A stretch of DNA of 38,406 nt from a virus: positions 1 to 38,406 of the IMG/VR virus record IMGVR_UViG_3300028030_000035. One strand, 5' to 3'. How positions within the stretch are numbered: the first letter of the stretch is position 1; every line of letters begins with the position of its first letter. Of this stretch, positions 19,700-34,524 are shown piece after piece. A program made the translations under genes and the position numbers. A model generated the notes under the pieces. That model was not told the origin of the DNA and did no database searches. It saw nothing but the letters and a program-made list of their open reading frames with translations.

Positions 19700-20848
19700 A
19701 TGGCACTAAAAATAAATAAAAGAATTGGCGATATTACACCAAACTTTAACCCTAGGTATTTTAAAGAAGCATACAACAATTATAAACTCGGACGTGTTGC
19801 TAAACTAGTTGCTATGATTGAGTTTGCCGAAATAGACTCGCACGTGGCTGGGTGCTTACTTGGACGTGATGCGGGGTATAAAAAAGAGTGGTCCATAACT
19901 CCAGCATCCGATAATGAACAAGATGTTCAAATTGCCGAGTTCTTTACAGAATACTTCAAATCAATTGGCATGAGAGATTTGTTTGAAGATATAATGGATG
20001 CAAAAAAGAAAAAATTTGTTGTCTTAGAATTTGAAAATTGGGATATATTAAAAGTGGGCAACCAAGAAAAACAAGTTCCAACAGAAATTAGAAAAATGCA
20101 CCAAAAATATTTTAGGCTCGATACTAAAGATAACAACAAACTAAAAATTGATGATGGCAACAACCTTTTAGATATTCCAGAAACTGGTGGCTTTCCTATT
20201 GTTTACAAGCGTAACCCAATAATGCTACCAGTATTACGAGATTTTATACTAAAAGAATTTGGTGTAGAAAGTTGGGCAGCATTTATGGAAACCTTTGGCG
20301 AACCCTTTATTATTGGTAAATATCCACCAGGCTCCGATGCAGCTTTTATTAGCCAGCTCGAAGAAGCTGTAAACTCACTTGGTGCATCAAGTAGAGGCGT
20401 TGCTCCTATGGGTTCCGAAATTGAAATAAAAGAGAGCCATCGTAGCACCGGAGACCACGAAAAGTTTGCGGGATACTCCGATAAAGGAATTGCCATTTCT
20501 CTACTAGGGCATGCAAATGCCGTGCAACAAAGCTCCACAATGCAAATTGGCGAAAACCTTGCACCATACAAAGTAAAGTTAGAACTTGCTGTTGACGATA
20601 TTTATTTTATAGAAACACAAATACAAGCACTATTACGGTTTCTAATTATTCGTAACTATGCAGGAGTTACAAAATTTCCTACTTTTAGCATAGACAAATC
20701 GGAACCAATAAATGTAAAAGAATTTCTTTTGGTTTTAGACCAGGCATACGAGCAAGGTATGGAAGTTAATCCATCGGAATACGCAAAACTTGGGATGCAA
20801 GTAAGTGATAAACAAAAACCTCTTTCAAAAACTGATTTGTTGGATTAA
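19700..20848 (+). CDS. Portal protein (DUF935, Mu gp29-like)
   Basis: Forms the dodecameric portal through which DNA is packaged. The N-terminal segment (LGRVAKLVAMIEFAEIDSHV) with AGCLLGRDAGYKKEW, the middle FGVESWAAFMETFGEPFIIG and the STMQIGENLAPYK region are typical of the DUF935 portal family. At 382 residues it is near the short end of the family. The start follows GGAG. It is flanked by terminase and a virion morphogenesis gene as in Mu. Confidence 0.9.
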   Translation: MALKINKRIGDITPNFNPRYFKEAYNNYKLGRVAKLVAMIEFAEIDSHVAGCLLGRDAGYKKEWSITPASDNEQDVQIAEFFTEYFKSIGMRDLFEDIMDAKKKKFVVLEFENWDILKVGNQEKQVPTEIRKMHQKYFRLDTKDNNKLKIDDGNNLLDIPETGGFPIVYKRNPIMLPVLRDFILKEFGVESWAAFMETFGEPFIIGKYPPGSDAAFISQLEEAVNSLGASSRGVAPMGSEIEIKESHRSTGDHEKFAGYSDKGIAISLLGHANAVQQSSTMQIGENLAPYKVKLELAVDDIYFIETQIQALLRFLIIRNYAGVTKFPTFSIDKSEPINVKEFLLVLDQAYEQGMEVNPSEYAKLGMQVSDKQKPLSKTDLLD

Positions 20849-22803: not shown

Positions 22804-23454
22804 TTATGCCTCGGCACTAAACAATGTATTTTCGTTTGCTTCAAAACGCCTCTGTTTTTTGCTACCACTTATATACTGATATGGTATTAAGTGAGTTGCA
22901 TTGTAGGGTTTATAAAACCCTAACAGCTTATCCGCTTTTTTCATTTTAGAGTATGGCAAATCTAATGCTTTGCAAAGTTCTTTACGGCTTAAACCTAACT
23001 TTCTGAACTTTTTATACCTTCCCAATTTACGTGGCGGTATTTCGTAAAGCACAGCATCATCCATATTGGCAATTTGTAATTGCTCTTCTAAACTCTCATA
23101 CTTAATTGCTAGTTCTTGATACTCCGATACGTGGATATACTCTTTGGTTCTAATTGCCTTTATCATTTTAGCAAAAACTCTACGAAACTCTTTTGCTTTT
23201 TCAGAACGTGATATCATACAGAGAGTGTAAATTTGTTCTTCACTTAAAAGTAATGTTGGACGACCAACGACATTTTTAAACTTAGAGTTTAAAAACCCTT
23301 CAAATTCATCAATGTTTCTTTTAATAGTTTGATGAATATTTTGGATTGAAATTCCAAGTACTTCTGAAATTTTAGAGATGGAAAGATAAAATTCATTATC
23401 CTTGCGGATAACTTCTGTTTCGGATAAACCGAAATACTGCATTGTGTTTGTCAT
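22804..23454 (-). CDS. Antirepressor-like regulator (216 aa)
   Basis: The start at 23454 (MTNTMQYF) is fixed by CTGGAGGTCAGAA; the longer frame runs into the structured leader. The N-terminal 90 residues (FYLSISKISEVLGISIQNIH and RPTLLLSEEQIYTLCMISRS) resemble the BRO/antirepressor N-terminal domain or ORF6N-type domains, with an HTH-like segment. The following coiled coil (YQELAIKYESLEEQLQI) leads to a basic C-terminal HTH-like part (KKFRKLGLSRKELCKALDLP). It probably binds DNA. Function as antirepressor is inferred. Confidence 0.6.
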   Translation of the reverse strand: MTNTMQYFGLSETEVIRKDNEFYLSISKISEVLGISIQNIHQTIKRNIDEFEGFLNSKFKNVVGRPTLLLSEEQIYTLCMISRSEKAKEFRRVFAKMIKAIRTKEYIHVSEYQELAIKYESLEEQLQIANMDDAVLYEIPPRKLGRYKKFRKLGLSRKELCKALDLPYSKMKKADKLLGFYKPYNATHLIPYQYISGSKKQRRFEANENTLFSAEA

Positions 23455-23485
23455 TTCTGACCTCCAGTAAATTAATTGAACATTA

Positions 23486-23561
23486 ATAAAAAAAAGGCAA
23501 CTCTTGTTCACTCCTTTACTGGAAGGGAGCATCCGCACTCACGTAGCGGATAGAGTTGCCT
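23486..23561 (-). ncRNA. Structured leader RNA ending in a terminator
   Basis: On the minus strand an outer stem AGGCAACTCT / AGAGTTGCCT (10 bp) encloses two hairpins, ATCCGC/GCGGAT and CTCC/GGAG, and is followed directly by eight or more T. This three-way-junction plus T-run lies 40 bases upstream of the ribosome binding site of the antirepressor-like gene. It could be an attenuator, a small RNA 3' end, or an operon end. Confidence 0.6.
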
Positions 23562-23662: not shown

Positions 23663-24193
23663 TCAAATTTCATCATCATTCTTTATATTTTTATTATAGA
23701 AGTCTTTAAGCCTCTCAAAGTTTGTTTTTGTAAAATATCTTACCAAACTATAATCGGCTCTAATTTTTAGTTCAATTTCTTTTGCATTACATATTTTCTC
23801 TATAAACTTCTTGTTTACTTCATAGCTTGCACCTTCCGAGACCAATCCGCTTAGAACTTCTCTTGCATCAGAACTCCCATCGCCACTTAACTCATGTTTT
23901 TTGCCGTCAATTAATAACACAAGCGATTCGCCTTCGGGGATAAAAATCCAACTGCTACCAATATATCTTAAAATTATAAAATAAGTAGTTGGTGTTGCAC
24001 CACTAGTTTTATATAAATCAAAATACACATGTCCCCTTTGCCCATCGCTTCCCAATAAGTTCCACCTTGTTTGTTGTGTCCGTATATTTTCAAATCTATC
24101 ATAACTATCCATCACCTTATACTTTAGCGTTGCACAACTCTGCAACAACAACGTAGTTAATAAAACGGATAAAATAATAATTAGTTTTTTCAT
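23663..24193 (-). CDS. Predicted lipoprotein (176 aa)
   Basis: A signal peptide MKKLIIILSVLLTTLLLQSC ends in a lipobox with Cys20, so the mature protein would be lipid-anchored. The mature part has beta-strand rich segments (RGHVYFDLYKTS, TYFIILRYIGSSWIFIPEGE) and a C-terminal helix. No domain is recognised. A lipoprotein carried by a prophage often alters the surface, for instance to exclude other phages, but that is only an inference. It overlaps the upstream gene by four bases. Confidence 0.65.
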   Translation of the reverse strand: MKKLIIILSVLLTTLLLQSCATLKYKVMDSYDRFENIRTQQTRWNLLGSDGQRGHVYFDLYKTSGATPTTYFIILRYIGSSWIFIPEGESLVLLIDGKKHELSGDGSSDAREVLSGLVSEGASYEVNKKFIEKICNAKEIELKIRADYSLVRYFTKTNFERLKDFYNKNIKNDDEI

Positions 24194-24729
24194 CTCTCTA
24201 CCTCTTGTTTGTTAATAATGTTATTTATTTTGTTTTGAGCTTTCTCAAATTTATCGGTTTTAATTAAGCCACTAATAAGAGCAAACTCAGTGCTGGTAAT
24301 TTTATTTTTAATTGTGCCAAGTAACTTATATAAATTTGCAATTGTTTGCTTACGTTCATTTGCTTGTCTTATATTTTCTTTTCTACGTTCATTACCAGCA
24401 AGGGCAGCAGTTTTTAATTTAATTTGTGCATAATGGTCTTGTAGCTTTTTATCCTTCATATTGCTAAATATTTTATAAAAATAAGCAAAGTGCATTTTTT
24501 CTGGTTGGTCGGCATAAAGAGCAAATTGCTCTAAAGCCTCACGGAAAATATTAAAAGCAGTTGTAGGTTTAAATCTTTTATCTTTAATACCAGCCACTAA
24601 TTTATTTTGCATATGTATATTGCAAGGCTTATTAGCATAATAATTATAAAAGAGAGTAACGTATTTAAATACTTCGCTATTGTTATTAAAGTTAATTTCT
24701 TCGTTTAATATTTTTGTTGGGTTAATCAT
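24190..24729 (-). CDS. Hypothetical helical protein (179 aa)
   Basis: A mostly helical protein with FRPTTAF-like and HYAQIKLKTAALAGNERRKE segments, charged and soluble, with no recognised family. It is translationally coupled to the lipoprotein (ATGA) and lies 13 bases after the ribbon-helix-helix gene, so the three form one transcription unit. Confidence 0.55.
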   Translation of the reverse strand: MINPTKILNEEINFNNNSEVFKYVTLFYNYYANKPCNIHMQNKLVAGIKDKRFKPTTAFNIFREALEQFALYADQPEKMHFAYFYKIFSNMKDKKLQDHYAQIKLKTAALAGNERRKENIRQANERKQTIANLYKLLGTIKNKITSTEFALISGLIKTDKFEKAQNKINNIINKQEVER

Positions 24730-24742
24730 AGTAAAGTTTCAA

Positions 24743-24940
24743 TTATTGCAAAAACCAATCCACGCCCTCAATTAGTTCTTTTACTGGCTCTAAGTTTATA
24801 TTATCTTTTTGTAATTTTTCTTTTATAGCTTCGTTAACAAAATCTGTTAAGTTTCTGTATTTACGTTGTTCCACAAGGTCCTTTATTATTTCAGTATAAA
24901 GAACTGGAGTGTTGAATAATATTTTTTCTTTAACTATCAT
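24743..24940 (-). CDS. Ribbon-helix-helix regulator (65 aa)
   Basis: A small CopG/Arc-type DNA-binding protein. The beta strand is followed by TEIIKDLVEQRKYRNLTDFV and NEAIKEKLQ, the usual two-helix pattern. Such proteins act as antitoxins or autoregulators. A perfect 16-bp palindrome lies four bases upstream of its start, supporting autoregulation. No toxin-like gene of known family follows, so the partner, if any, would be the 24190-24729 product. Confidence 0.7.
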   Translation of the reverse strand: MIVKEKILFNTPVLYTEIIKDLVEQRKYRNLTDFVNEAIKEKLQKDNINLEPVKELIEGVDWFLQ

Positions 24941-24944
24941 ATAT

Positions 24945-24960
24945 AAACGTATATACGTTT
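24945..24960. promoter_or_regulatory. Perfect palindromic operator of the ribbon-helix-helix gene
   Basis: AAACGTATATACGTTT is a perfect 16-bp palindrome lying 4 bases upstream of the start codon. The ACGTATATACGT core is typical of sites bound by ribbon-helix-helix dimers. Confidence 0.7.
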
Positions 24961-25025
24961 TAGTTTTACCACTTTGTTAAGTTATTGTTTTACTTACACT
25001 TTTAAGCCTATCTGGTTAGTAGGTA

Positions 25026-25147
25026 GTTATCCAGCACCAAAAAGCGGTGCTGGATAATGGCGGCGGCGATGCTATTCGCTTTTTGGTCTGGATAACCAAC
25101 GATTCAACCCTTCACGCTTGCGTGAGGGTTAATCGCCGCCGCCATTA
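25026..25147 (-). repeat. 122-bp repeat element, copy 1
   Basis: Begins GTTATCCAGCACC and ends GCCGCCGCCATTA on the plus strand; on the gene strand it starts with the TAA stop of the upstream cassette gene. It contains a 16-bp perfect inverted repeat (TAATGGCGGCGGCGAT and its complement), an attC-like hairpin (CGATTAACCC...GGGTTGAATCG) and a TTATCCAGCACC/GGTGCTGGATAA hairpin. This copy closes the array. Confidence 0.9.
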
Positions 25148-25477
25148 TACAACTGTTTCTGGAAATTTTATTAAATGTCCAATATGTCCAATCAATTCAT
25201 TAGTGTCCATTATTCCATCATATTCATCTGCAATTTGTTCATTAAATATATACTCAGCGTCTTTTCCAATGGCGTCCATCACGTCTTTAGTCGTTTTGTT
25301 GCTAATACTCACAGCCAATCCACCCCATCTACATCTAACATAAATCATTCTGCCGTCTTCAAGCCATCCCTCCCATTGTGATGGGCAAGCCTGGCAAGTT
25401 TGGTAAAATCGTTGTATAACCAACGGTTCGTTTTGACCACCTTTTACGCTCGCTTTTTTTGAGAGTTCTTGTTTCAT
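25145..25477 (-). CDS. Cassette gene 7, conserved hypothetical with attC-encoded N-terminus
   Basis: A 110-residue protein. Its ATG and ribosome binding site (AAGGAATAAC) lie inside the loop of attC6, and the R' half of that attC encodes GGQNEPLVI in frame. The conserved-looking part begins after R' with CQACPSQWEGWLEDGRMIYV and RCRWGGLAVSI. The two-cysteine plus WEG/DGR pattern resembles small cassette proteins I have seen but cannot name. The TAA stop is the R'' box, here extended by repeat copy 1. Function unknown. Confidence 0.6.
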   Translation of the reverse strand: MKQELSKKASVKGGQNEPLVIQRFYQTCQACPSQWEGWLEDGRMIYVRCRWGGLAVSISNKTTKDVMDAIGKDAEYIFNEQIADEYDGIMDTNELIGHIGHLIKFPETVV

Positions 25478-25543
25478 TTTAAGTTATTCCTTTTTTTTAT
25501 TTTTTAGTTCTACGGTGGCAACACAACCGCAAGTCCGTTATCC
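25414..25543 (-). repeat. attC6-like recombination site
   Basis: In gene orientation it runs from GGATAACGG (R'') through CGGTTGTGTTGCCACC, a loop with GAGCGTAA, then GGTGGTCAAAACGAACCG and TTGGTTATAC (R'). The arms are complementary with small bulges. It is closely related to attC2. The loop contains the start of cassette gene 7. Confidence 0.75.
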
Positions 25544-25658
25544 AGCACCAAAAAGCGGTGCTGGATAATGGCGGCGGCGATGCTATTCGCTTTTTGGTCT
25601 GGATAACCAACGATTCAACCCTTCACGCTTGCGTGAGGGTTAATCGCCGCCGCCATTA
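25537..25658 (-). repeat. 122-bp repeat element, copy 2
   Basis: Identical to copy 1 over the full 122 positions. It supplies the TAA stop of cassette gene 6 and abuts the R'' box of attC6. Confidence 0.9.
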
Positions 25659-25991
25659 GGTGGAAAATTTTTCTGTAAATCCCTTAATACCTTCTTCTGT
25701 CCCCCACACATAAAACCCATCTTCATTATATTCCTCATATTTTGGTGGGTTACTTATTCTAATTGGCTCACTTTTAGGATTAAAGTCTCCTAATGTATCC
25801 AAGCTACCTCTCCACATAGTTCTTACACTTCCCAATACACCAACTGGAGAAGCCATTATTACCAATTTACGTTCGTTTTTTGGCACATCTAAATCATCAC
25901 ATCCTACATCCTCACCATAAATTAAAGTAACAGAATAATTTCCAGCTTGTTTAACTTCTTCTAATTTTTCAAGTAACATTTCTTTCTCCAT
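25656..25991 (-). CDS. Cassette gene 6, hypothetical protein (111 aa)
   Basis: A 111-residue soluble protein with TLIYGEDVGCDDLDVPKNER, RKLVIMASPVGVLGSV and a C-terminal GFYVWGTEEGIKGFTEKFST. The start follows GGAGAAAGAAATG-like spacing after R' of attC5. The TAA stop is the first codon of repeat copy 2 and once formed the R'' box. No family is recognised. Confidence 0.6.
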   Translation of the reverse strand: MEKEMLLEKLEEVKQAGNYSVTLIYGEDVGCDDLDVPKNERKLVIMASPVGVLGSVRTMWRGSLDTLGDFNPKSEPIRISNPPKYEEYNEDGFYVWGTEEGIKGFTEKFST

Positions 25992-26014
25992 TTTTATTTA
26001 TTTTTAAATCATCC

Positions 26015-26102
26015 ACCTAACAACTCACGCAAGCCGACCGATATTACGCTTTGGCTAATTTCAATATTCCATCTCGGACGGCTTCGTTCGAGTCCGTTAT
26101 CC
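26015..26102 (-). repeat. attC5, the most classical site
   Basis: In gene orientation GGATAACGGACTCGAACGAA and GCCGTCCGAG (R'', L''), then a short loop with AAGCGTAA, then ATCGGTCGGCTTGCGTGAGT (L') and GTTAGGT (R', an exact GTTRRRY). About 88 bp, near the usual attC size. The GACTCGAACGAAGCCG arm pairs with CGGCTTGCGTGAGTT with unpaired bases. Confidence 0.85.
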
Positions 26103-26213
26103 AGCACCAAAAAGCGGTGCTGGATAATGGCGGCGGCGATGCTATTCGCTTTTTGGTCTGGATAACCAACGATTCAACCCTTCACGCTTGCGTGAGGGTT
26201 AATCGCCGCCGCC
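26096..26213 (-). repeat. 118-bp repeat element, copy 3 with divergent edge
   Basis: Identical to the others over 118 bases but ends in GATCC followed by GTTATAC instead of ATTA. The original R'' (GTATAAC, 26219-26225) is intact next to it, so TAACGGA-like sequences stand on both sides of this copy. This gives the best view of an insertion boundary. Confidence 0.9.
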
Positions 26214-26219
26214 GATCCG

Positions 26220-26441
26220 TTATACATGTTTGGCGTTGGCACTCTCGATAACCTTCAATATTCCGAATCTATCATACAGCTTTGTCATTCGACCGCCCCC
26301 ATATTGCAATGCTTTCACTATCCTACCCATTTCATCAACTAATAGTTTGTTCTGTTTCCTCCAATCACCTTCCAGTAATACTGCTTCATCAAATGTGAAA
26401 TCTTCTTCTCTCACCATTCGCAATTCATTAATATTTCTCAT
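26220..26441 (-). CDS. Cassette gene 5, hypothetical protein (73 aa)
   Basis: The start at 26441 (MRNINELRMV) follows GGAGGATTAAA. The product is a short alpha-rich protein (DEAVLLEGDWRKQNKLLVDE) with a basic C-terminus. The frame is open upstream through the R' box of attC4 (LVIRLLAW). The stop is in the intact R'' GTATAAC. No family is recognised. Confidence 0.55.
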   Translation of the reverse strand: MRNINELRMVREEDFTFDEAVLLEGDWRKQNKLLVDEMGRIVKALQYGGGRMTKLYDRFGILKVIESANAKHV

Positions 26442-26464
26442 TTTAATCCTCCACGCCAATAAAC

Positions 26465-26582
26465 GTATAACCAATCGCACAAAACGACAAGTTTTACGCT
26501 TGGCTTTTTAGTTTATTATTTAGTTAGTTTATCAATCATTTTTGCATCTTAAACTTGCGTTTTAGCTCCAATGCCGTTATCC
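26465..26582 (-). repeat. attC4-like site
   Basis: In gene orientation GGATAACGGCATTGGAGCTA with AAAACGCAAGTTT, loop with CAAGCGTAA, then AACTTGTCGTTTTGTGCGAT and TGGTTATAC. The arms pair with bulges. 118 bp. Confidence 0.75.
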
Positions 26583-26697
26583 AGCACCAAAAAGCGGTGC
26601 TGGATAATGGCGGCGGCGATGCTATTCGCTTTTTGGTCTGGATAACCAACGATTCAACCCTTCACGCTTGCGTGAGGGTTAATCGCCGCCGCCATTA
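26576..26697 (-). repeat. 122-bp repeat element, copy 4
   Basis: Identical to copy 1 over 122 bases. It forms the TAA stop of cassette gene 4 (codons GGC TAA TGG) and adjoins R'' of attC4. Confidence 0.9.
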
Positions 26698-27033
26698 GCC
26701 ATTTTTACTTGCTAAAAATTTTATTGTCATTTCTATAATATTATCATCATTTGTGCCGTATACACATTTGCCACTATCTGCATATCCTGGTTCAACAACA
26801 TTATACCCCACTTGGGTTGCAATATGCTCCTTAACTTCCGCAAGTAAAAAATCTTTAGTAGTAGCCCTATTAGGCTCTTTTTTGTGGCTAACAATCGCTG
26901 TATTTGAATTGCTAATGTGTTTGTTTATATCACGTCTTAACTCAATTAAGTTTTCTTTTGTCGGTTCAATGTTAAATGTAAGCCACGCTTCTATTTCTTC
27001 TAAAAATTGTCTATCTGTTTCAAAGTTTCTCAT
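26695..27033 (-). CDS. Cassette gene 4, hypothetical protein (112 aa)
   Basis: The start at 27033 (MRNFETDRQF) has AAAAGGAGATTAAAA before it. The N-terminal half is helical and charged (FLEEIEAWLTFNIEPTKENL), the middle basic, and the C-terminal part has CVYGTNDDNIIEMTIKFLAS. The segment upstream contains only the first half of an attC (GTATAACGG at 27077 and a GCGTAA motif), so gene 3 and gene 4 may now move as one cassette. No family is recognised. Confidence 0.55.
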   Translation of the reverse strand: MRNFETDRQFLEEIEAWLTFNIEPTKENLIELRRDINKHISNSNTAIVSHKKEPNRATTKDFLLAEVKEHIATQVGYNVVEPGYADSGKCVYGTNDDNIIEMTIKFLASKNG

Positions 27034-27083
27034 TTTTAATCTCCTTTTATTTACGCAATCAAATAAACTCAAATCCGTTATAC
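27034..27083 (-). repeat. Truncated attC3 remnant
   Basis: The R'' box GTATAACGGATTTG follows the stop of gene 3 and a GATTGCGTAAAT motif is kept, but the L' and R' half is missing and the next gene's ribosome binding site follows at once. A deletion has fused two cassettes. Confidence 0.6.
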
Positions 27084-27359
27084 TGCTTTAACCTTTGCAT
27101 AAAAAGAGGGATATTCGCACCCTTCTTTTGTTATTTCAAAAGAATCATGTTCCAATACTACGTCCCAGCATCCTGATCTGTGGCTGTAATTAACTCTATG
27201 TATTTCTGCTCCAGCTGGTATATTTGTAATTTTTACTTTGTTGGAAAACAACCCTATTAAGTCCATATCTCCAAGAGATAATATTTTACGCCGTATAACC
27301 AACGGTTCGTTTTGACCACTTTTACGCTTGTTTGTTTTCCTTTCTACTAAATCTTTCAT
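27078..27359 (-). CDS. Cassette gene 3, hypothetical with attC-encoded N-terminus
   Basis: The ATG at 27359 with TTAGGAGTAAC upstream lies in the loop of attC2. The first 24 or so residues, MKDLVERKTNKRKSGQNEPL and VIRR, are therefore encoded by that attC. The rest (LSLGDMDLIGLFSNKVKITN, IPAGAEIHRVNYSHRSGCWD) is a beta-rich protein of the kind DSFEITKEG often seen in small phage or cassette proteins. Function unknown. SGQNEPLVIRR matches GGQNEPLVIQR of cassette gene 7. Confidence 0.6.
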   Translation of the reverse strand: MKDLVERKTNKRKSGQNEPLVIRRKILSLGDMDLIGLFSNKVKITNIPAGAEIHRVNYSHRSGCWDVVLEHDSFEITKEGCEYPSFYAKVKAV

Positions 27360-27423
27360 AATTTTTGTTACTCCTAAATTGTTTAATTTTATCAGTGGCA
27401 ACACAACCGTATTGCCGTTATAA
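27293..27423 (-). repeat. attC2-like site
   Basis: In gene orientation TTATAACGGCAATACGGTTG with TGTTGCCACTG, loop with AAGCGTAA, then AGTGGTCAAAACGAACCG and TTGGTTATAC. The arms CGGTTGTGTTGCCACT and AGTGGTCAAAACGAACCG pair with two unpaired bases. No repeat element is inserted here, so this shows the original R''. Confidence 0.8.
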
Positions 27424-27711
27424 AGCATTTATTAAATTACTTTGGTAAAACTGTCTAACATTCTTATTCTTTTTGGGTTTGCCGTCTTTTTTTAATTCAA
27501 GGCATCTATAAAGGCATTCGCCATAATTTCCGAAAGCACCACTTATTGCGGTTATCTCCTCAATTTTGCCTTTCCCAATATGGTCTTCTATCACATCATT
27601 AACCTTATATTTGTTATTGCTCATAGCATATTTGTATTTGAGCTGTTTTATGGCTTTATTTTTAGCATCATTTATTTCTTTAATTTTGTTATCAAATTTT
27701 TCTTTGGTCAT
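27418..27711 (-). CDS. Cassette gene 2, hypothetical basic protein (97 aa)
   Basis: The start at 27711 (MTKEKFDNKI) follows GGGAGTTGAAA. The N-terminal part is a charged helix (IKEINDAKNKAIKQLKYKYA), then a small beta part (VIEDHIGKGKIEEITAISGA) that resembles a KOW/SH3-like turn, and GNYGECLYRCLELKKDG. The TAA stop lies in the R'' box TTATAAC of attC2. Function unknown. Confidence 0.55.
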   Translation of the reverse strand: MTKEKFDNKIKEINDAKNKAIKQLKYKYAMSNNKYKVNDVIEDHIGKGKIEEITAISGAFGNYGECLYRCLELKKDGKPKKNKNVRQFYQSNLINAL

Positions 27712-27734
27712 TTTCAACTCCCATTTAATAATCT

Positions 27735-27860
27735 TTATAACCAGCAACTGCACTTGACCGATTATACGCTTAGGCTATTTTGTTTTATGTTTTGTTAATT
27801 AAATTCATTTTATCTATCTTGCATTTTAACATCGGCAAGTAAGTTGCATTGCCGTTATCC
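27735..27860 (-). repeat. attC1-like site
   Basis: In gene orientation GGATAACGGCAATGCAACTT and ACTTGCCGATG, long AT-rich loop with AAGCGTATAA, then ATCGGTCAAGTGCAGTTGCT and GGTTATAA. The outer arms pair well (GCAATGCAACTTACTTGCCGA with TCGGTCAAGTGCAGTTGC). 126 bp. Confidence 0.75.
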
Positions 27861-27974
27861 AGCACCAAAAAGCGGTGCTGGATAATGGCGGCGGCGATGC
27901 TATTCGCTTTTTGGTCTGGATAACCAACGATTCAACCCTTCACGCTTGCGTGAGGGTTAATCGCCGCCGCCATT
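27854..27974 (-). repeat. Repeat element, copy 5
   Basis: Identical over at least 118 bases. It is followed by ATTTTAG instead of ATTA, so it joins a differing flank (CTAAAATGG on the gene strand) 18 bases after the stop of cassette gene 1. Confidence 0.9.
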
Positions 27975-27991
27975 TTAGTTGTGTTTTGTGA

Positions 27992-28183
27992 TTATGACAC
28001 TATTTCTTCCAAAGTCAGTAATAGTTCTTTTATTTGTTCTATTTCCAAATGGGTAGTGATACAGACTCTTTCATCTTCTATTGTATCGTATGTTTCAACA
28101 TCAACCCCACCATTCGCACTCTCAACACTCATTATCACTATACCTTTTTTATCTACAATGCTACCTCTTATTTTGTTATCCAT
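27992..28183 (-). CDS. Cassette gene 1, hypothetical protein (63 aa)
   Basis: The start at 28183 (MDNKIRGSIV) is preceded by GGTGGGAGATAAA. The product is a short acidic protein with DKKGIVIMSVESANGGVDVE and a C-terminal helix (HLEIEQIKELLLTLEEI). No family is recognised. It is the first cassette of the array, next to the attC0-like site. Confidence 0.55.
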   Translation of the reverse strand: MDNKIRGSIVDKKGIVIMSVESANGGVDVETYDTIEDERVCITTHLEIEQIKELLLTLEEIVS

Positions 28184-28272
28184 TTTATCTCCCACCACAA
28201 AAACTATTGTAGTTGTTAAATTGTAAATTATTTAATTGGTTTTCTTTCTCATTGCCTTCAAGTTTGTAATAA

Positions 28273-28332
28273 AACTAACAAGCAAATGTGCGGAATTAAA
28301 AATAAATCCGCACATTTGCACCTACGTTATCC
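28273..28332 (-). repeat. attC0-like site or strong hairpin at the array start
   Basis: In gene orientation GGATAACGTAGGTGCAAATG and TGCGGA, an AT-rich loop, then TCCGCACATTTGC and TTGTTAG. The 13-bp arms are perfect and flanked by TAAC and GTTA. It is shorter (60 bp) and lacks the GCGTAA motif, so it could be only a terminator hairpin. Its position in front of the first cassette favours a site. Confidence 0.5.
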
Positions 28333-28371
28333 ACTCCACAACCCTTTTCCCGCCATCGGGAAGATGGTCTA

Positions 28372-29007
28372 TCAGCTTTCAACCAACTTTATCCTACCCA
28401 AATTCTTTTTAACAACTACATGATTAGAACCATTTAATACTTTTATTAAATTATCTACTTTAACTCTACTTGGTTCTGGAAGATTATTATTGCCACTATC
28501 TGCACCAATGTTTATCCAACTTGCATCTGCAATAGTTATTAAATTCATTAGCTCTAATAAGTCAAAATCCAATATTGGCTCAATGGTAATAAACTTTGGG
28601 TTTGTAATATTAGTCATTGCTTTTGCCCTACTTAAAGGACTTGGAGAGTTGCTATAAATATTCTTATAGTCTCTATTGCTTTCAATGGTTGTGCCTAATG
28701 TAAATCTATCATCCAAATCAAATTCTGAAAATCTGCTAGGATTTTTTGTTTGTAGCAAATATTTATTGTCAAACTTTTTGCAATAATCTAAAACTTTATT
28801 TATCCAATTAGAGCTAACGTTCTCTGCAAACATATCGTTTGAGCTGCCAACAAATATAAAATTACCACTTCCTAAATCTGTGTTCAATTCTTTTTCATCA
28901 AAACGTATTGGGTTAAGTTTTCCCCATCGTTTCATGTAACAATAAGAGCAATTATGATAACACTCTCCTTTAATTACATTCCAAGTGTGAGTTATAAACT
29001 GATACAT
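28372..29007 (-). CDS. Radical SAM protein, phage Gp37/DUF5131-like
   Basis: The start at 29007 (MYQFITHTWN) has AAGGAAAT before it and is preferred over 29034. Cys16, Cys20 and Cys23 in GECYHNCSYCYMKRW form the CX3CX2C cluster-binding motif of radical SAM enzymes. HTWNVIKGECYHNC, FVGSSNDMFAE and ITIEPILDFD are typical of the DUF5131 (bacteriophage Gp37-type) family. The reaction is unknown. At 211 residues it is near the usual size. It is the gene just before the cassette array, and the hairpin TTCCCG-ATGG-CGGGAA (28347-28362) follows it. Confidence 0.8.
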   Translation of the reverse strand: MYQFITHTWNVIKGECYHNCSYCYMKRWGKLNPIRFDEKELNTDLGSGNFIFVGSSNDMFAENVSSNWINKVLDYCKKFDNKYLLQTKNPSRFSEFDLDDRFTLGTTIESNRDYKNIYSNSPSPLSRAKAMTNITNPKFITIEPILDFDLLELMNLITIADASWINIGADSGNNNLPEPSRVKVDNLIKVLNGSNHVVVKKNLGRIKLVES

Positions 29008-29047
29008 ATTTCCTTTTTGTTTGTTTAGTGGCATTCTATTTTCTCGC

Positions 29048-29521
29048 TTAATATTTACATCCGTTTGGGCAAATTGCTCTACCAGTTGTTGTATAGTTTA
29101 CCCAACTAAAGCATTTAGGACACAGACCTACAAAGTGCATAGCTTTAGTGTAGTAATATTTAGTTCTATATTTAATTTTTAATAGTATCATTTTTTTGCT
29201 TTTGGGTGTCGAAGTAAGATAATCCCACAGTTTGCCCGATGTAGATAAATCAACAATTTCATCGTCTTGTGTTACCATGCCATCTTTATATTTTCTGCCA
29301 AAATCTAATTCAAAACAGAAGTATTCTATATCGCATATCCCACCAGGATAAGTAGGGTATTCTGCTTGTAGTAATTTCATTATTTGATTGTTTATTAACG
29401 AGTTGTTGTAACTCTCTATAAAGCCTCCAAAAACTTTGTTAATATGTTTGGTATTGGCTTCATCTATTTTCTGTTGCTTTTCAATAACTTCTATTGTTTC
29501 TATAAATAATTCTTTTTCCAT
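29048..29521 (-). CDS. Hypothetical protein with C-terminal zinc ribbon (157 aa)
   Basis: An N-terminal helical part (FIETIEVIEKQQKIDEANTK), then GGICDIEYFCFELDFGRKYK and VDLSTSGKLWDYLTSTPK, a pattern I know from Bacteroidota phage proteins without a function. The C-terminus carries four cysteines (LCPKCFSWVNYTTTGRAICP and NGC), likely binding zinc. It lies 40 bases before the radical SAM gene in the same operon. Confidence 0.6.
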   Translation of the reverse strand: MEKELFIETIEVIEKQQKIDEANTKHINKVFGGFIESYNNSLINNQIMKLLQAEYPTYPGGICDIEYFCFELDFGRKYKDGMVTQDDEIVDLSTSGKLWDYLTSTPKSKKMILLKIKYRTKYYYTKAMHFVGLCPKCFSWVNYTTTGRAICPNGCKY

Positions 29522-32940: not shown

Positions 32941-34524
32941 TTACCCAAATGCTTTTTTTGGGTTATTTATTGCTGAAATAACTGAGTCTATGTTTCTTTT
33001 TATCAAGCCCTCTTCATCTTCTAAAAATTCGTCAAATATATCTTTGTAATCGGTGTAGTTTTTACCTTTTTTAACCATTTTACCAATGTATGCCTTGGCT
33101 TCGTAAACTGAGTTAAATTTGTAATCTTCGCTATACTCGGCTTCATCAAACTTACTTTTGGGTTCAATAATTTCTTGTGTAGGTGGTATATAATTTATTT
33201 TAGATTTTTTATCGGTCTCTGAGCTAAGTCGAAGATCTTCCTTAATTTCGCCTTCCAGTTTTTCTTTATAAGTTTGATGTTCTCTGTGTTCAAAGTTACC
33301 AAGGGATATAAAGCCTTCGGTTACTTCAAGAGCAAATGGTTTATGATATTCGTCCGATAGTTCGCCCATAAATTCGCCACTGTAACTAATATAAACCCCA
33401 ATCCACTTATCTAATGCAAATGCTGGAGCTTTAAGTTTTACTTGTTCTCCCTTAAAGGTTACAGAAACAACTAAATCGTTATTTACTTTTCGTTTCCAAG
33501 TCTTAAATATATATTCACTTATATCACGTTCTATTCTACGCACAGGATGTGCTGTAATGGATGATAAATAATTGTGTGCTTTACTTCCTGAACGAACTGG
33601 ATGTTCTGTTGCTTGATTTTCAATCATAAACTCGTGTAATAAATCGTTATAATCCGATAGGTGTATTGTTCCACCATTACCTATTTTTAATGCTAAAGGT
33701 AGCTCAAAACGTTGCCACATTAACCGCCATACAGATTCTTGTTTCTGTATTCCACGTTTTTCATAGGGCATTACTAATTCTTTTTTTATCCCTAGTTTTT
33801 CAAGCATTTGGTCGGTTTGCTTGTTATCCAACGGACCATTATCCATTTTAAGAACTTCTGGCAAGTGCATTAAATTTAACTCGTCTTCACTTCTGTTGTA
33901 GGCAAAACGCATAAGTTTTAATCCAAGCAAAGTAGATTCTCCAGTTGCTGCATAAGCACGAGCAACGGCAATTCGTGAAAAACTATCAACAATTCCACCA
34001 AGCCAAAGGCGTAATTTTTTGCCATCTTCTTTATATGCAAGCACACGGCTAACCTTAAGTATTAAATCATCTCCATCTTTTTTATGAATATTAAAATATT
34101 TAGAACGAGAAAAATCTAACTGATGCTGTTGGTTTGCATAATCGGGTTCAACACGCACAATTATATCACGTTGCCTAAAACCTTTTTCTCGTAACCTTCG
34201 GTTTACTGTGCTTACTGTTAAATTTTCTGCACCAACAACCATCTCATTTTTTAAGATATTAATACATACTTCTGTTGATATCTCACGTTCTGTCATCCCT
34301 AAAGCTCTGCCCTCTAGCTTCATTTTGCCTATTTTATCAATAAGCCTATCTTCTATTTTAGGAACTCTTACAATGTTTTTTGATGCTCCAAACTCTTTTC
34401 GCACTACTCTATAAATTGTTGCCTCGCTAACGCCAAATTGCCTTGCAATTCCGGATACAACTTGCCCTCGCATCCCTTTACGAACTCCTTTGAGTTCATT
34501 CTTTATTGCTATTGCGTTAATCAT
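32941..34524 (-). CDS. MuA-like DDE transposase
   Basis: Catalyses strand transfer for replication and integration. An N-terminal HTH (SGIARQFGVSEATIYRVVRK, about 24-43) precedes a second DNA-binding part. The catalytic triad is Asp137 (QLDFS), Asp228 (MDNGP) and Glu263 (KQESVW), with a 35-residue D-E spacing. After the beta-barrel part (VSVTFKGEQVKLKAPAFALD) the C-terminus is acidic, as expected for the MuB-binding domain. The segment EDLRLSSETDK (about 428-438) is a translated CTGAGC-GTCGAAG repeat. At 527 residues it is shorter than MuA. It lies in the leftward early operon. Confidence 0.92.
   Translation of the reverse strand: MINAIAIKNELKGVRKGMRGQVVSGIARQFGVSEATIYRVVRKEFGASKNIVRVPKIEDRLIDKIGKMKLEGRALGMTEREISTEVCINILKNEMVVGAENLTVSTVNRRLREKGFRQRDIIVRVEPDYANQQHQLDFSRSKYFNIHKKDGDDLILKVSRVLAYKEDGKKLRLWLGGIVDSFSRIAVARAYAATGESTLLGLKLMRFAYNRSEDELNLMHLPEVLKMDNGPLDNKQTDQMLEKLGIKKELVMPYEKRGIQKQESVWRLMWQRFELPLALKIGNGGTIHLSDYNDLLHEFMIENQATEHPVRSGSKAHNYLSSITAHPVRRIERDISEYIFKTWKRKVNNDLVVSVTFKGEQVKLKAPAFALDKWIGVYISYSGEFMGELSDEYHKPFALEVTEGFISLGNFEHREHQTYKEKLEGEIKEDLRLSSETDKKSKINYIPPTQEIIEPKSKFDEAEYSEDYKFNSVYEAKAYIGKMVKKGKNYTDYKDIFDEFLEDEEGLIKRNIDSVISAINNPKKAFG
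33218..33235. repeat. CTGAGC-GTCGAAG repeat within the transposase gene
   Basis: TCTGAGCTAAGTCGAAGA, the repeat core also seen at 15435-15454. It is read in frame in the transposase C-terminal region without disrupting it, in a linker between the barrel and the last domain. Confidence 0.75.

Follow-up and report, generated by a model that had tools for sequence, protein, structure and literature searches.

How does a Mu-like phage in which no integron integrase is found come to hold, within its early operon, a run of small genes set between integron-type recombination sites, and which way round do those sites lie relative to the genes? This question is raised by positions 25027-28326 of a viral stretch of 38,406 nucleotides (IMG/VR record IMGVR_UViG_3300028030_000035, positions 1 to 38,406), the whole of which is called the window below. 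A first-pass annotation, made from the letters alone, had described an integrase-less cassette array inside the early operon of a Mu-like prophage. Our analysis shows that the attC sites of this region form a cluster lacking an integrase (CALIN) within a Mu-like phage early operon, and it suggests that the genes run antisense to their attC sites and that a repeated gene-less unit is itself a cassette; the anatomy of the array is well supported and its polarity fairly well.

Read on the + strand, the array consists of twelve segments between recombination cores, i.e., seven segments with a gene and five copies of a gene-less unit (Table 1; cassettes are called by the first position of their gene). 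The seven short co-oriented genes of the first-pass annotation were all confirmed, on the minus strand. They share this strand with the phage early operon, including the phage genes on either side of the array, and the annotated position between same-strand phage genes was likewise borne out by these neighbors. The left end is a bare core (GGTAG^TTATCC) with no attC before it, whereas the right end is closed by an attC site. With two or more attC sites and no integrase found, the locus fits the definition of a CALIN, and is not a complete integron with an integrase nearby: a crude motif scan of the window saw no tyrosine recombinase, the 1.64-Mb genome bin of the contig has only TIGR02249 (integron integrase) matches far below the cut-off, and none of the 20 same-genus and same-family genomes searched (G001-G020) has an integrase over it, in agreement with the annotation on this point.

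In the five long sites (S1, S2, S4, S5, and S6), the R and L boxes pair to give attC hairpins whose loops are long and whose arms include unpaired bases, so that the imperfect arms noticed at first are present in the folds; the loop motif GCGTAA, described as common to the sites, is found in four of the five (as TTACGC on the + strand) and is replaced by a variant in S1. Together with the compact terminal site S0, these sites separate the genes as claimed, except that the site at 27009-27086 is degenerate and that none stands at the 25027 end. The annotation had proposed a covariance-model search for attC sites as a check, and we ran it with a model of our own (R1), built from the five long sites with their loops trimmed and with the gene-less units and S0 held out. 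In the 1.64-Mb bin (150 of 258 first-look candidates scored), R1 gave eight matches at E<=1, all eight of them in the array: the five training sites, which match by construction, and three gene-less units. With filters off, R1 recovered in the window all five units (27.8, 19.3, 19.2, 16.7, and 14.8 bits), S0, and the degenerate site, with the first matches beyond the array at E 2.1 and with four of the five training sites reported only in part. Across 249 genomes R1 matched only the bin itself and a second genome (G104), and around the integrases of 18 genomes plus G104 it gave just three matches, which indicates that the model is too specific for most sites near those integrases. A search of 24000-29500 against Rfam returned no match, and an attC half-site pattern search of viral contigs found nothing.

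Such inverted repeats could in principle be ordinary intergenic terminators or repetitive extragenic palindrome (REP)-like hairpins instead of integron sites, given that attC hairpins are quasi-palindromic, that a loose thermodynamic attC scan is unspecific (28 candidates elsewhere in the window), and that terminator-like sites exceed those in shuffled sequence (8 vs. 2.6 +/- 1.7, five of the eight being one 5-bp stem, on the + strand, that recurs with the units). We reject this explanation as extremely improbable because there is a core at every junction, the unpaired bases have fixed spacing, cassette starts and ends are complementary (below), and R1 is specific over 1.64 Mb; the R1 match in G104, 3.7 kb from an integrase-like fragment, also argues against it.

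In circular cassettes, the R'' box at one end is complementary to the bases that open the cassette just after G^TT. We scored every start against every end for the unit and for six gene cassettes, leaving aside cassette 26695 because its attC is degenerate. The scores of own start against own end summed to 61, a value reached by only 2 of 5040 permutations, one of them the true pairing; when the unit was excluded, 2 of 720 permutations were as good. The own end was the best partner for five of the seven (cassettes 25145, 26220, 27418, and 27992, and the unit), and the complementarity of the unit (14.5) was the highest of all.

The annotation had placed the R''/L''/L'/R' plan on the gene strand; on this point the extrahelical bases and the limits of the repeated unit speak for the reverse polarity. 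IntI1 excises best those attC sites that have T-N6-G or T-N6-C, where the two bases lie on a single side of the bottom strand once it is folded, the extrahelical bases being numbered 72 and 80 in one such strand (PMC3053210). We take these bases to lie on the 3' arm of the bottom strand, as in this array. Positions 16 and 23 of the + strand 5' arm (counted from the start of R'') are unpaired in all five long sites and in the unit, and the net extra base of the fold is at position 23 in four of the five sites and at position 16 in four, S4 having it at 15. On the minus strand, the two extrahelical bases read T-N6-G in S2, S4, S5, and S6, T-N6-C in S1, and A-N6-G in the units. Further, the five identical stretches run from core to core on the + strand, whereas in a minus-strand reading each would cover parts of two neighboring cassettes, and a bare core first (25027) with S0 last is the order expected of a + array. 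Because of the places of T-N6-G/C, the core-to-core limits of the unit, and the order from bare core to S0, we assign the attC top strand to the + strand, which means that the minus (coding) strand would be the recombinogenic, folded one; this assignment is fairly well supported. By their extrahelical bases, five of the seven genes would then be antisense to attC, again with fairly good support, and the layout of the cores suggests the same for genes 26695 and 27992. The usual though not obligatory arrangement, with gene and attC in the same direction, is seen in none of the five cases in which polarity can be read from these bases.

The earlier reading overlooked that five intergenic stretches contain an identical unit, which has no gene, is bounded by cores, and has the same first 117 nt in all copies. 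Four copies are 118 bp long and end ..CCGCCGCCA^TT, and copy 3 is 123 bp long and ends ..GATCCG^TT. With a GC content of 53%, the unit is richer in GC than the gene cassettes (30-37%). It folds from its first to its last base as two abutting hairpins, with a stability of -67.8 kcal/mol as RNA in the coding direction (z -9.6) and -41.1 as + strand DNA (z -9.1); 0 of 200 shuffles were as stable in either case. The 25-nt join of its right and left ends recurs inverted inside it, and consequently a circle of the unit (e.g., 25538-25655) would have two identical, opposed cores and might invert. Most likely, the units are gene-less cassettes multiplied by integrase-type recombination, and they may act as regulatory or insulating elements. 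Exact searches for the core patterns of the unit found none in viral contigs or GTDB genome contigs, and blastn with the whole unit found none in plasmids or phages. A group IIC-attC intron was also considered for the unit and ruled out, the unit being far too short for the size known of such introns.

What would account together for the observed anatomy, polarity signature, complementarity, and identical units, and for the lack of an integrase in our searches, is probably an attC array with antisense genes and mini-cassettes that was built in trans by an integron-type tyrosine recombinase from elsewhere, i.e., from a putative helper. Lying antisense to attC, the genes would be co-directional with the phage early operon, and for this reason they are probably transcribed by phage read-through and not from an integron Pc promoter. 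The core G^TTA, which reads TAA^C on the opposite strand, supplies the stop codon of six of the seven genes: in these six the TAA lies exactly opposite the core TTA (offset 0), and in gene 27992 alone the stop is away from the core (offset 19). The annotation, which had set the TAA of most genes in the R'' box, was correct about the coincidence in those six, the box itself being the R' core on the other strand. Since the core supplies the stop, an exchange at the core would leave the neighboring reading frame intact. Genes 25145 and 27078 start within their own attC loop, with a Shine-Dalgarno-like sequence ahead of the ATG, and in these two cassettes the loop would thus hold both the ribosome site and the start codon. 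The proteins of 27078-27428 and 25145-25477 have the stretch GQNEPLVI in common, as each reading frame crosses attC DNA, 97% identical between the two over 31 nt. In RNA, the units would fold into highly stable hairpins downstream of stop codons, by which each message could be insulated or stabilized.

In a quasi-symmetric circle, a core used as stop codon and a start codon within attC resemble the usual compact cassette. The unusual feature of this array would be which strand recombines. It is tempting to extend the model to a reversed integron platform run by the phage, in which the operon replaces Pc, entry is promoter-distal, only cassettes with antisense genes are kept as only these are expressed, the core is a universal stop, and the self-folding mini-cassette multiplies between the genes, either insulating them or parasitizing integron integrases, although we hold this extension tentatively and regard it as rather unlikely in its entirety.

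Several observations weigh against an array built in trans with reversed polarity. Own ends are outscored for cassettes 25656 (8.0 vs. 8.5) and 27078 (5 vs. 6); the array includes one poor attC site (27009-27086); four of the five units have A^TT in place of G^TT at the right end; and promoter-like sites number 17 vs. 14.3 +/- 4.1 in shuffles, i.e., they are not above shuffles. No related prophage with this locus, with or without cassettes, was found among the viral contigs, phages, and genomes searched, so that the changeable set of cassettes envisaged in the annotation is hypothetical, and the identical repeats could conceal errors of order in a draft contig. As to polarity, the totals for the two arms over six sites are close (14 unpaired bases in the + strand 5' arm vs. 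12 in the 3' arm; net extra bases, unit included, 11 vs. 7), and S0, with a stem that has no unpaired bases, yields none. A fold test on eight attC sites of a chromosomal integron of the bin's order (G132) gave no arm bias (6 vs. 7), and four other loci with 8 kb beside an integrase have mixed gene directions by a crude open reading frame (ORF) call. In the G132 integron, which served as a control, all 12 ORFs beside the integrase run in the normal direction, away from it. Since the arm totals, the G132 fold test, and the mixed loci are indecisive, the case for polarity depends on the constant positions of T-N6-G/C together with the limits of the unit.

These points bear on the alternative that polarity is normal, with genes sense to attC, and that the units belong to some other, non-autonomous element (for example, a hairpin-ended relic of the IS200/IS605 insertion sequence type or a miniature inverted-repeat transposable element) that targets R'' beside the stop codon. 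A cassette circle looks alike in either polarity, neither arm of the sites is free of unpaired bases, and four units end in A^TT; the end-to-end fold into two hairpins could also suit an IS200/IS605 relic, as these elements have hairpins at both ends (PMC7923331). The two hairpins fill the unit entirely, and its target is always a core. However, the T-N6-G/C signature points to the minus strand as the bottom strand, and the unit behaves as a cassette: it has an attC body of its own, in which the two positions unpaired in the other sites are again unpaired, its own start/end complementarity, and core-to-core limits. Moreover, its ends are not inverted repeats of each other. We therefore consider this alternative unlikely.

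A possibility that we take more seriously, while leaning against it, is that the array is a fossil, captured once and whole from a bacterial integron, now immobile and only transcribed by the phage, which would be compatible with the anatomy described above. The lack of an integrase in the window and bin, the one degenerate site, and the A^TT cores of four units would all be expected under this hypothesis, whereas the identity of five copies over 117 nt suggests recent multiplication, and an ordinary piece of an integron is expected to bring genes sense to attC.

Assembly and binning have to be considered as well, given that exact repeats are a familiar assembly hazard: a short-read assembler might have scrambled or duplicated the 117-nt repeats, and the contig might be in the wrong bin. 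In composition the contig is indeed unlike the bin, with a GC content of 0.338 vs. 0.23-0.31 (21 readable of 24 sampled bin stretches) and 4-mer distances of 0.30-0.38 vs. 0.12-0.23, and the whole contig (window 1-38406) may be misbinned or may simply be a phage unlike its host, as phages often are. Nonetheless, every gene cassette with its own attC sits wholly between units and does not depend on joins across a repeat, the right end of unit 3 differs from the others, and misbinning would touch the name of the host only. An artefact is thus a very unlikely source of the array.

Because the composition of the contig differs from that of the bin, the absence of an integrase from the bin says little about the true host, or about the host integrase that the annotation had envisaged. 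Integrons do exist in the bin's order, given that a search of 149 genomes (the bin among them) found 20 with an integrase that passes the TIGR02249 cut-off. At one locus of that order (G132:C1, L171), such an integrase is accompanied by 12 same-direction ORFs with attC sites beside. Another locus (G104:C1:541158-545154, L177) holds the integrase-like fragment mentioned above, which is below the cut-off and has a stop, with an R1 match of 31.9 bits nearby; this locus of a single-contig 1.8-Mb genome of the same order is perhaps the relic of an integron.

The searches for related phages covered several genes. MuA, MuB, and the head protein as single queries had no relatives in viral contigs; MuB matched 5 of 149 genomes (own included), the other four weakly. 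In the phage collection, the portal matched 179 records (all <60% identity), the terminase 1, the head protein 70, and MuA none. An alignment search with the head protein found relatives 33-45% identical in 117 viral stretches (80 kept) and 14 genome loci, and R1 had no match on 70 of these 94 relatives (24 left out) or on two further loci (L057 and L049), nor on the one locus recovered with gene 25656 or the 13 recovered with the DUF5131 gene. Among 397 genomes of the bin's phylum (own included), the head protein matched 2, and genes 25656 and 25145 each matched the own genome only.

The identity of the contig as a Mu-like phage is supported by a Mu-type gene set with a DDE-type transposase, a Mu portal, DUF3164, an AAA ATPase, a terminase assigned by PHROG, and a major head protein resembling that of phage B3 (38% identity). 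The DUF5131 gene upstream of the array has relatives in phage records and viral contigs. A gene with a BRO-N domain (window 22804-23538) is located near the turn of gene direction. The end of the contig (38320-38406, minus strand, 29 codons) encodes TVDSTGNIVYAGYNSSGYKIFKLDKDIGG, which may be the last part of a host gene adjoining the prophage; besides itself, this peptide had only three short, weak matches in 60 genomes.

As for the cargo, gene 25145 resembles Brevundimonas and Caulobacter phage proteins (31-38% identity, 9 records), and gene 25656 shows 51-54% identity to proteins from phages of Bacillus and Lysinibacillus (among the matches listed, 6 of 7 records). Genes 26695 and 27418 had no match in the same phage-protein searches, and none of the seven genes had a Pfam, NCBIfam, or PADLOC match over the curated cut-off, with weak matches at most. 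Phage accessory genes are the likeliest nature of the cargo.

Table 1. Positions of the array, its cassettes and sites, and other phage genes in the window (strand of cassettes and sites as read in the array; gene strands in brackets)
Feature	Positions	Strand	Remarks
Whole cassette array	25027..28326	attC top strand probably +, genes on -	core list; extrahelical bases for polarity
Gene-less unit 1, 118 bp	25027..25144	+	begins at bare core
Gene cassette 25145	25145..25537	+	gene 25145-25477 (-), ATG at 25477 within own attC, stop at core
Gene-less unit 2, 118 bp	25538..25655	+	
Gene cassette 25656	25656..26096	+	gene 25656-25991 (-)
Gene-less unit 3, 123 bp	26097..26219	+	ends GATCCG^TT, not A^TT
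Gene cassette 26220	26220..26576	+	gene 26220-26441 (-); ORF tool start 26480
Gene-less unit 4, 118 bp	26577..26694	+	
Gene cassette 26695, degenerate attC	26695..27077	+	gene 26695-27033 (-)
Gene cassette 27078	27078..27417	+	gene 27078-27359 (-), start codon in own attC; ORF tool start 27428
Gene cassette 27418	27418..27854	+	gene 27418-27711 (-); ORF tool start 27753
Gene-less unit 5, 118 bp	27855..27972	+	
Last gene cassette (27992)	27973..28326	+	gene 27992-28183 (-); ORF tool start 28198
attC S6	25414..25546	+	R1 75.6 bits, training site; fold
attC S5	26015..26105	+	R1 61.2 bits, training site
attC S4	26465..26585	+	R1 76.7 bits, training site
Degenerate attC, between genes 27078 and 26695	27009..27086	+	R1 10.0 bits, E 2.7
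attC S2	27293..27426	+	R1 76.3 bits, training site; loop with Shine-Dalgarno-like sequence and ATG on minus strand
attC S1	27735..27863	+	R1 76.3 bits, training site
attC S0, compact, terminal	28273..28335	+	held-out R1 match 18.0 bits, E 0.026; 13-bp stem without unpaired bases
Mu portal	19700..20848	+	PF06074 E 4.3e-44
Small ribbon-helix-helix-like gene, just downstream of array in transcription	24743..24940	-	weak Pfam RHH_8 E 7.6e-4, below cut-off
DUF5131 phage gene, just upstream of array in transcription	28372..29034	-	Pfam E 3.2e-11
MuA-type transposase	32941..34524	-	phrog_310 transposase 4.4e-9; rve below cut-off

A phage-borne CALIN is a known kind of locus, since attC arrays in phages are on record: among 10,705 phage genomes, Qi et al. 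2023 (PMC9892861) counted 17 CALINs and 3 complete integrons, with 5 of 6 tested phage attC sites recombined with IntI1 and one phage with divergent site directions. Our array is like these phage CALINs in being an attC array without an integrase inside a phage genome, and differs in its apparently antisense genes, its core as stop codon, its five-fold gene-less cassette, and its Mu-like phage. Reverse integrons, in Treponema and others (PMC3607928, PMC6557892), likewise depart from the normal relation of integron parts, whereas here it would be the genes that are turned within the cassettes. Cassettes without a gene also occur within known arrays (PMC11014356, PMC6557892); such ORF-less cassettes were tested as promoters, while here one sequence is present five times, is nearly all base-paired, and has no promoter signal above shuffles. 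Compared with the chromosomal G132 integron, the attC array is similar, but there an integrase is present and the 12 ORFs have the normal direction. In the portions available of the open-licence literature, we found no report of an all-antisense attC array or of a repeated gene-less cassette between genes, which is not proof that there is none. What is new is the arrangement, i.e., apparently reversed polarity, core-as-stop geometry, and a repeated gene-less cassette.

If this model is true, a phage without integron parts of its own can carry and express integron cassettes, and the direction of a gene in its cassette would follow whichever promoter reads the array. The array also offers a direct test of what fixes cassette orientation. 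Finally, the repeated unit, a cassette that is nearly all recombination site, is a candidate for a minimal parasite of integron integrases.

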